A DNA stretch of 64,000 nucleotides from Natronomonas salina (GTDB taxonomy: Archaea; Halobacteriota; Halobacteria; Halobacteriales; Haloarculaceae): NCBI RefSeq assembly GCF_013391105.1, contig NZ_CP058335.1:3534001-3598000 (forward strand), given 5' to 3'. Under the pieces are notes generated by a model. The model searched no databases. It worked only from the letters and a program-made list of their open reading frames with translations, and was not told the origin of the DNA. The translations under genes were made by a program, and so were the position numbers. The stretch's first letter is position 1; every line of letters starts with the position of its first letter. Positions 47,532-50,213 of the stretch are shown piece after piece.

Positions 47532-48200
47532 ATGACCGCAGGGGGGCGCGACGGCGGGGGCGACCCGTCGCCGGCGAAGACCGTCGCCGTCGAGGAGCTC
47601 CGCTCGCAGCTCGCGGAGCTGGAGGACACCGTCGACGACCCCGAGGAGCGCCGGGAGGTCGAGCAGGCGATCAGCCTCCTGGAGCGGCTGCCCGGCGGCG
47701 CCGACGGAGCCGACCTCATCAGGAAGTTCACCCGGCGCGACATCGCCGAGGGGTTCGTCGGCGCCATCCTCATCTCGCTGCCGATGCTCGTCGAGGACGG
47801 CGTGTTCGAGATCGCCGAGGTGTTCCTCGCCCGGCCCGCGCTGCTCGTCCTCAACGTCTGCTTCGTGTTCGCGGTGACCGCCGGCCTGCTGTACTTCGCG
47901 GACTTCCGGGACGTCCAGATCACCCGGCCCATCTTCGGCATCATCCCCCGGCGCTTCACCGCCGTCCTCGTCATCGCCTTCGTCACCGCGACGTTCACCA
48001 TGACGCTGTGGGGCCGCCTCGACGGCTGGTCTGACCCGGTCGTCGCGCTCGCGCGCATCTCCGTCGTCTGGACGCTCTGTGCGTTCGGCGCCGCGCTCGG
48101 CGACCTCCTGCCCGGCGAGTCCTCCGCGAAGGACATCAACGACGAACTCGACGACCTCGGCGAACGCATCGGTATCGGGGACCGGGAAGGGCGATTCTAG
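47532..48200 (+). CDS. DUF2391 family membrane protein
   Basis: A 222-residue protein. The first 70 residues are soluble and include a helix LRSQLAELEDTVDDPEERREVEQAISLLERL. Four or five membrane helices follow, starting at EGFVGAILISLPMLVEDGVFEIAEVFL, and a conserved turn contains RRFTAVLVIAFVTATFTMTLW. This layout matches DUF2391, an uncharacterised membrane family also found in bacteria. It is an isolated gene, and three hairpin-like repeats lie in the 267 bases after it. Confidence 0.82.
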   Translation: MTAGGRDGGGDPSPAKTVAVEELRSQLAELEDTVDDPEERREVEQAISLLERLPGGADGADLIRKFTRRDIAEGFVGAILISLPMLVEDGVFEIAEVFLARPALLVLNVCFVFAVTAGLLYFADFRDVQITRPIFGIIPRRFTAVLVIAFVTATFTMTLWGRLDGWSDPVVALARISVVWTLCAFGAALGDLLPGESSAKDINDELDDLGERIGIGDREGRF

Positions 48201-48227
48201 AACCCCCACTTTTTGCACGCTCCGGCG

Positions 48228-48250
48228 GTTCAGCGCCGATGGCGCTGAAC
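48228..48250 (+). terminator. Inverted repeat after the DUF2391 gene
   Basis: GTTCAGCGCC, GAT, GGCGCTGAAC is a perfect 10-base inverted repeat with a 3-base loop. A T5 tract (CACTTTTTGC) lies just before it, so the DUF2391 transcript may end at the tract or hairpin. Confidence 0.5.
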
Positions 48251-48299
48251 ACGCCTCCGCGGCAAAAACTTGGGGAAAATATGCGCGCCCTCCTCCTGT

Positions 48300-48397
48300 C
48301 GCGCGGCTTCGCTCCGCTCAGCCGCGCGATAGTCGTCGGGCGCTACGGCGGCTCACTTCGTTCGCCGCCGCGAACCGCGCTCGCTTCGCTCGCGCGG
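48300..48397. repeat. Cluster of three REP-like hairpins
   Basis: Three hairpins follow one another: stems CGCGCGGCT/AGCCGCGCG (48300-48308, 48320-48328), CGGCGGC/GCCGCCG (48346-48352, 48364-48370) and CCGCGC/GCGCGG (48375-48380, 48392-48397). Each loop is exactly 11 bases: TCGCTCCGCTC, TCACTTCGTTC and TCGCTTCGCTC. They lie between two converging genes, where they could stop transcription from both sides. A fourth copy occurs at 56655-56675. Confidence 0.65.
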
Positions 48398-48467
48398 ATG
48401 CTAGCTTTCGTTTCTACTCTCGTCTGGCCAAAGCAGCGCCTCTACAGTCGAGAAAGCAGTCCGGCGC

Positions 48468-50213
48468 TCAGTCGTTTCGCTTCGCGCCGGGGTTCGTCAC
48501 AGCGCCGTTGGCCGCCGAGTCGAACTGCTGGCCGTACTTCGCCAGCACGCCGTTCGTGTAGTTCGGCTCCGGCTGGCCGCGCTCCTCGATGCGGCGCTCG
48601 ATCTCCTCGTCGGAGAGGTCCACCGACATCTCGAGGTTGTCGATGTCGATGGTGATGGTGTCGCCGTCCTCCAGGGCGGCGATGGGGCCGCCGTCGAAGG
48701 CCTCCGGGGCGACGTGGCCGATGGAGAACCCGCGTGTGGCCCCCGAGAACCGGCCGTCGGTGAACAGCGCGACGTCCTCGGCGTGGCCCTGGCCGGCGAC
48801 CGCGCTCGTGACGCCGAGCATCTCGCGCATGCCGGGGCCGCCCTTCGGTCCCTCGTTGCGGATGCCGATGACGTCACCGGACTCGACGTGGCCCTCCTGG
48901 ACGTACTGCATCGCGGTCTCCTCGTCCTCGAAGATCCGGACCGGCCCCTCGTGGTGGAGGTGGTCCTCGCCGGTGATCTTGATGACCGCGCCCTCGGGCG
49001 CGAGGTTGCCGGTGAGGATGCGGATGGCGCCGCGCTCGTGGATCGGGTCGTCGACGGTGTGGAGGAAGTCCGCGTCGACGTCCTCGATTGCCGCCGGGTC
49101 GAGACGCTCGATCGCCTCGGCGATCGTCTCCCCGGTGACCGTGAGCGCGTCGCCGTGCAGGAGGTCGGCCTCGAGGAGCTCCCGGAGGACGACCGGGACG
49201 CCGCCGACCTCGTGGAGGTCGTTCATCACGCGCTCGCCGCCGGGCTGGAGGTTCGCGATCTTCGGGGTGCGGGCGCTGATCTCGTTGAAGTCCTTGACGT
49301 CCAGCTCGATGCCGGCCTCGGCGGCCATCGCCAGCAGGTGGAGGACGGCGTTGGTCGACCCGCCGACGGCGACCTGCAGCGAGATGGCGTTCTCGAAGGA
49401 CTCCCGGGAGAGGAAGTCGGAGGGTTTCCGGCCCTCCTGGACGGCCTCGACGGCGAGTTCGCCGCTCTCGCGGGCGACCTCGTAGCGGTCGTCGTCCTCG
49501 GCGGGCGGCGACGACGAGCCCAGCGGCGCGAAGCCGATGGTCTCGGAGATCGACGCCATCGTGTTGGCGGTGAACATCCCGCCGCAGGAGCCGGCGCCCG
49601 GGCAGGCGTTCCGCTCGAGGTCGTCGAGTTCGTCCTCGCTCATCTCGCCGTCGGCGACCGCGCCGACCCCCTCGAAGACGTTCTGGATGGTGACCTCGCG
49701 GCCGTCGTGCTCGCCCGGCATGATGGACCCGCCGTAGAGGAACACCGACGGGAGGTCCGTCCGGATGGCGGCCATCATCATCCCTGGCATGTTCTTGTCG
49801 CAGCCGCCGATGGTGACGAGGCCGTCCATGCGCTCGCCGAAGGAGACGAGCTCGACGCTGTCGGCGATGACCTCCCGGGAGACGAGGGAGGCCTTCATCC
49901 CCTCGGTCCCCATCGAGATGGCGTCGGAGATGGTGATGGTGCCGAACTCGATGGGCATGCCGCCGGCGTCGTCGACCGCGTCGTAGGCGGCCTGGGCGAC
50001 GTCGTCGAGGTGGACGTTGCAGGGCGTGATGTCGGCGGCGGGGTTGGCGACGCCGATCATCGGCGAGGAGAGGTCCTCGTCGTCGTAGCCCATCGCGCGG
50101 AACATCGCGCGGTGGGGGGCGCGCTCGACGCCCTCGGTCACCTCGTTGCTCGGGAGGTCGTCGGGCTTCTGGCGGTCGCCCGACTCGCGCTCGGGCGGTT
50201 CCTGCTGGCTCAT
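48468..50213 (-). CDS. ilvD: Dihydroxy-acid dehydratase
   Basis: A 581-residue IlvD/Edd family protein, which dehydrates 2,3-dihydroxy acids in valine, leucine and isoleucine synthesis. Iron-sulfur ligands are Cys65 (ITPCNVH), Cys138 (GGCDKNMPG) and Cys210 ([15 protein letters not shown]). [14 protein letters not shown] and [19 protein letters not shown] are conserved. A CGTTAAGTC element on the minus strand (50235-50243) is about 26 bases upstream of the ATG, which suggests a leaderless transcript. No other ilv genes are adjacent. Confidence 0.96.

Follow-up and report, generated by a model that had tools for sequence, protein, structure and literature searches.

Termination in archaea has mostly been described as a matter of a bare T stretch. 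In Haloferax (PMC7237163), intergenic termination takes place at a T stretch followed by C, and in vivo a T5C sequence terminated 95% of transcripts. T-tract terminators and dispersed palindromes are both already known kinds of element. Among the results listed by our searches of one open-access library, neither such a cap in haloarchaea nor a terminator-like cassette that is dispersed and carries GA/GNA-capped hairpins is described. A candidate lies between two converging genes in the window, the 64,000-nucleotide stretch of the Natronomonas salina genome analysed here. If our preferred reading is correct, this cassette would join termination, antisense-RNA shielding and the spread of a repeat in a single unit open to testing by deletion. 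Its cap, GA/GA plus GNA, provides a simple searchable signature.

Three hairpins and their shared cap

The sequence-only reading of this stretch had pointed to three consecutive hairpins between converging genes, and all three are present where it placed them, between a DUF2391 gene on the plus strand and ilvD on the minus strand. The plus-strand loops are found exactly: TCGCTCCGCTC at 48309-48319 on a perfect 10-bp stem, TCACTTCGTTC at 48353-48363 on a 7-bp stem and TCGCTTCGCTC at 48381-48391 on a 6-bp stem. The genes and hairpins are as follows.

47532-48200, plus strand: DUF2391 membrane protein gene, whose stop codon (48198-48200) abuts the element described below
48468-50213, minus strand: ilvD, encoding dihydroxy-acid dehydratase and pointing towards the element
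48375-48397, minus strand: hairpin 1, cap GAGCGAAGCGA on a 6-bp stem
48346-48370, minus strand: hairpin 2, cap GAACGAAGTGA on a 7-bp stem
48299-48329, minus strand: hairpin 3, cap GAGCGGAGCGA on a 10-bp stem

The same reading had proposed a fixed 11-base loop pattern on differing stems. The loops are there and the stems do differ, but the predicted minus-strand folds place two extra pairs within each 11-base loop, so that it appears to be no open loop at all, being closed by two inner pairs and GA/GA mismatches. On the minus strand the cap reads GA-X-C-GNA-G-X'-GA, in which X pairs with X', C pairs with G and GNA forms a triloop, while the flanking GA steps make a GA/GA internal loop. From nucleic-acid structure work, we expect these mismatches to be sheared pairs. 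The purine and the second free position of the proposed pattern covary, and TCRCTNCGNTC falls short as a full consensus because it misses the C-G version, GACCGAAGGGA. The predicted minus-strand fold reaches -76.8 kcal/mol against -58.5 for shuffled sequences (z -5.75); the plus-strand fold is weaker (predicted z -3.94).

We surveyed hairpins of this kind in an 864-kb sample made up of 40 evenly spaced 20-kb stretches plus the window. A scan of loop lengths from 3 to 17 that required a perfect stem of 6 bp or more showed capped-type 11-nt loops to be conspicuous among the longer ones, with GAGCGGAGCGA, GAGCGAAGCGA, GACCGAAGGGA and GAACGAAGTGA recurring. A search by shape (stem of at least 7 bp, 2x2 internal loop, 2 bp, triloop) returned 70 entries; 15 of these have GA/GA, and 15 more are the same GA/GA sites read as TC/TC on the opposite strand. 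Twelve of the 15 GA/GA entries carry a GNA triloop.

Covariation in rows chosen for their pairing arises partly by construction, and the figures that count are those from sets in which X and X' were unselected. In the 864-kb sample, all 20 such positions at stems of at least 6 bp are standard pairs. Among 123 hairpins, 117 are Watson-Crick at X/X' (52 GC, 34 CG and 31 AT), the remainder being five G.T and one G.A; the copies share kinship, so counts over them are not independent. Mismatches on the GA strand are G.T in 20 cases and A.C in 3 (10 versus 3 in stems, 10 versus 0 in the two inner pairs), compared with 555 versus 577 in 4,001 control hairpins with other 11-nt loops. Because G.T exceeds A.C there, it is the minus strand that folds, and the tolerance of G.T but hardly of A.C means that selection acts on the GA strand in single-stranded form, whether RNA or ssDNA.

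Could such structures simply be the GC-rich palindromes that a high-GC genome produces by chance? In the window, the bare loop string is no more frequent than expected (5 observed, 3.33 expected), in keeping with chance. With a stem attached, however, the 864-kb sample contains 25, whereas 20 first-order Markov simulations gave 0-4. Genome-wide, the loop string occurs 260 times against 100 for the pattern reversed, and in the host genome GAACGNAGTGA occurs 53 times against 1 for its backward control. The simulation counts, the GAACGNAGTGA control and the unselected X/X' pairing together refute the chance reading, which we regard as almost certainly wrong. Selection on the loop, or its spread, had been suggested from the three hairpins at this locus, and the genome-wide count and the chance and in-gene comparisons proposed alongside bear it out: the count is above expectation, and 98 of the 107 strong covariance-model matches (E ≤ 0.01) lie outside predicted genes, whereas 83% of the sampled sequence is coding.

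A dispersed element beside gene ends

The three hairpins form the leading modules of a dispersed element of about 200 bp, of which 16 copies can be aligned; their flanks are unrelated. At many clusters the modules recur in the order AGCATCCGCG, hairpin 1, CGCGGTTC, hairpin 2, GTAGCGCCCGACGACTA, hairpin 3, GGAGGAGGGCGCGCATATTTTCCCCAAG, TTTTTGCC, hairpin 4, GTGCAAAAAGTGGGG, and between copies the hairpins vary in sequence, length and number, with modules added or absent in some. At the ilvD locus the parts are the following, with element edges accurate to a few bases.

48202-48402, minus strand: whole dispersed element, reading 5' to 3' from AGCATCC (48402) to AAAAAGTGGGG (48204-48214) plus the edge
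48285-48343, minus strand: outer stem around hairpin 3 (GCGCCC:GGGCGC), varying in sequence among copies with pairing partly kept in the consensus fold
48276-48281, minus strand: TATTTT tract followed by CCCC, a proposed terminator for RNA from the ilvD side; the T run is conserved in aligned copies
48204-48275, no strand assigned: inverted repeat surrounding hairpin 4 and carrying T5 on both strands, a proposed bidirectional terminator core with covarying arms
48210-48214, plus strand: TTTTT tract, about 10 nt past the DUF2391 stop codon (48198-48200)

The far end of the element (48202-48275) thus stands against the DUF2391 stop codon. This core end has the form TTTTTGC-hairpin-GCAAAAA, and the arms beside TTTTT/AAAAA pair over at least 3 bp in 56 of 57 distinct cores, covarying as CCCA/TGGG, CGAA/TTCG, CGAC/GTCG, GAAC/GTTC and CGCA/TGCG. 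Some sites have a nested cap, in which a second GA/GA step lies five pairs beneath the first (CGAGCGGTGAACGNAGTGAGCCGCGAG) and the five-base stem also covaries (L061:1143, 1224 and 1297; L053:842; L057:18838). A two-hairpin block, CCCGC-cap-GCGGG followed by GGAAG.C-cap-GTCTTCC, is common to distant loci (L042:1619-1674, L060:15195-15250, L063:18399-18454).

Covariance-model searches of the host genome (3.75 Mb, a single contig) gave 148 matches at E ≤ 10, falling in 71 clusters. At least two hairpins are present in 48 of the clusters, mostly spaced 28-34 bases apart, and 45 of these 48 lie entirely on one strand. Eleven of the 71 clusters, mostly single hairpins, are within predicted genes. 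The 60 intergenic clusters comprise 32 tandem, 19 convergent and 9 divergent settings, as against 319, 88 and 165 among 572 background gaps 40 bp or longer. Where the flanking genes run in tandem, the GA strand is antisense in 23 of the 32 clusters, and in 21 of the 26 strong ones.

Placement relative to neighboring genes is tight. The adjacent gene reads into the TTTTT end in 27 of 30 element copies, with the stop codon 1-7 nt from that end in 22 and no more than 20 nt away in 26; the gene on the opposite side faces the element in 15. Across 30 core-pattern loci, two of them from the host genome, a stop codon lies 3-10 nt from GCAAAAA in 21, and 9 have none within 10 nt according to our gene calls, which used a gene finder trained on the host genome and applied unchanged to relatives. 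Only 30 predicted genes out of 851 have T4 within 15 nt of the stop, and 8 or more of these owe it to elements; given this rarity, we rejected a native T tract as the general insertion target. In two relatives the element edge is 1 nt from the 3' end of tRNA-Arg. There is also a second arrangement, in which sense-strand capped hairpins directly follow a stop codon or tRNA gene. Separately, capped hairpins stand beside apparent duplicated tRNA 3'-end fragments containing T-arm and acceptor parts at L113 (G000:C1:166975, 167333 and 172488), L163 (3293383), L114 and L367, as if inserted beside copies of tRNA ends.

In a wider survey, the hairpin model had matches at E ≤ 1 in 56 of the 60 genomes covered, and GAACGNAGTGA is found in 96 of 97 haloarchaeal genomes, usually far above its backward control; a few genomes show no excess, most of them small, distant or incomplete. 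In its exact form the core, GTTTTTGCC..GTGCAAAAA, occurs in 17 of the 97, mostly Natronomonas, with a backward control of 0. It numbers 27 copies in the host genome and ranges from 0 to 53 among congeners, the maximum being in G002. Related cores with different flanks occur in further genera, where none of 20 high-scoring loci, taken from the best-scoring places listed and not drawn at random, is inside a predicted gene. Viral contigs (IMG/VR, L240-L319) ranging from 30 to 71% GC contain the A-T version of the cap, in some cases on longer stems, which places the cap outside haloarchaea as well. That query was overly broad: of 85 matches at 80 loci, 25 have a stem of 4 bp or more.

The ilvD/DUF2391 junction could be compared directly across 30 ilvD loci. 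The element is present there in G001, G010 and G016 and absent in G005. The three junction elements have the same kind of core with differing hairpin modules, and junction modules are common to named Natronomonas loci and to the same-genus G016 and G001. Among culturable relatives, Natronomonas gomsonensis has the element. Differing modules on a like core, together with the absence in G005, suggest module exchange at a fixed place, with gain and loss over longer times.

A terminator, a mobile element or a structured RNA

We lean towards seeing the element as a T-tract terminator cassette, bidirectional and asymmetric, whose copies have spread among gene ends while exchanging hairpin modules, since T tracts are present on both strands, one of them against a stop codon or tRNA end. 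At the ilvD locus, plus-strand RNA from the DUF2391 side would meet T5 about 10 nt past the stop codon and end there. Minus-strand RNA from the ilvD side would pass the three capped hairpins and end at TATTTTC, behind which the minus strand carries a second T5. RNA polymerase would stop at the element in both directions, and the caps, with GA/GA, two pairs and GNA, would hold the minus-strand fold very stably and may protect or define the 3' end. Copies would spread among gene ends by some route in which hairpin modules are swapped.

Several observations count for the terminator cassette: the proportions of convergent and divergent settings among intergenic clusters, the T stretch downstream of a gene in the 26 of 30 copies within 20 nt of a stop, the 21 core loci with a stop close by, the Haloferax precedent for T-stretch termination, the tRNA-Arg edges, the rarity of T4 elsewhere, the covariation of the T5/A5 arms and the intergenic position of the 98 strong matches. 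Others count against it. Hairpins are not required for archaeal T-tract termination, and the T5 of the palindrome is ordered T-hairpin-A, not the bacterial A-hairpin-T. The nine core loci without a nearby stop are also unfavorable. In the tandem clusters whose folded strand is antisense to both genes (23 of 32), antisense transcription would be needed for that strand to be read.

The sharp edges, unrelated flanks and oriented arrays would also suit a mobile element of the non-autonomous kind (REP, MITE or PATE-like). A transposase would recognize its capped hairpins as folded ssDNA, and its siting at gene ends would reflect insertion preference or selection against harm and no function. The range of core copies among congeners and the presence or absence at the ilvD junction fit this as well. 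However, terminal inverted repeats and target duplications were not seen by eye in 29 flank pairs, the sole element with a Y1 transposase has other end palindromes, and insertion preference would not readily give so tight a stop distance (1-7 nt); we consider this reading possible but rather doubtful. Distinctly less probable is a structured RNA, in a 3' UTR or antisense, made from the GA strand and bound at its cap by a protein, with the terminator features incidental. It would account for the G.T tolerance of the GA strand, for the half of the copies in which a gene reads into the folded strand, and for the sense-strand hairpins after stop codons and tRNA genes. Against it, the stems, lengths and hairpin number vary freely, an Rfam match is lacking (Rfam 15 on 47900-48800 returned only a chance match of 17.4 bits, the gathering threshold being 60), and no fixed TATA-like position that might serve as the folded strand's own promoter appears upstream of 29 copies.

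The three readings are not mutually exclusive. They could be combined in a mobile terminator, a family that spreads by settling a few bases from transcript 3' ends (stop codons, tRNA ends) using its GA-capped folded RNA or ssDNA, each copy acting as bidirectional terminator and antisense shield, although we think this full version unlikely. As for the choice offered earlier between a REP family and a bidirectional terminator, the evidence favors a combination of dispersed repeat and terminator and does not support placing the element in the known REP family (GTAG/RAYT). A plasmid search with a 291 bp query at distant sensitivity gave no match. An origin from PATE/IS605 elements was rejected, the resident IS605-type element having palindromes with TCTTCA loops. 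That element, at L200 (G000:C1:1761836-1762183), contains the genome's only Y1 transposase match, followed by a TnpB-like frame and TCTTCA-loop end palindromes.

Relation to described systems

Like the T-tract terminators of Haloferax volcanii (PMC7237163), which have an intergenic T stretch after the gene and hairpins upstream of some sites, the element places T tracts at gene ends; here, in contrast, the tracts form part of a modular repeat that is dispersed and combines a covarying palindrome with hairpins capped on one strand. REP palindromes of the GTAG/CGTC type (PMC3733652) are likewise short, intergenic and often in oriented arrays near gene ends, and GTAG follows hairpin 2 in all 16 aligned copies. 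Shorter copies lack it, though, hairpins 1 and 3 are untagged, the stems vary while the cap is conserved, and no matching RAYT was found, the one Y1 transposase lying in an IS605-type element with other ends. Haloarchaeal PATEs and IS605-type ends (PMC3119063) resemble the element as transposase-free palindromic repeats with heterogeneous copies, but the IS605-type end palindromes of this host have TCTTCA loops in place of GA caps. Finally, the inner heptamer of the commonest cap is GCGAAGC, the sequence of the extraordinarily stable d(GCGAAGC) mini-hairpin (PMC10527192); in the element, the heptamer tops a GA/GA mismatch pair and a genomic stem that is long and variable, and it may act as RNA.
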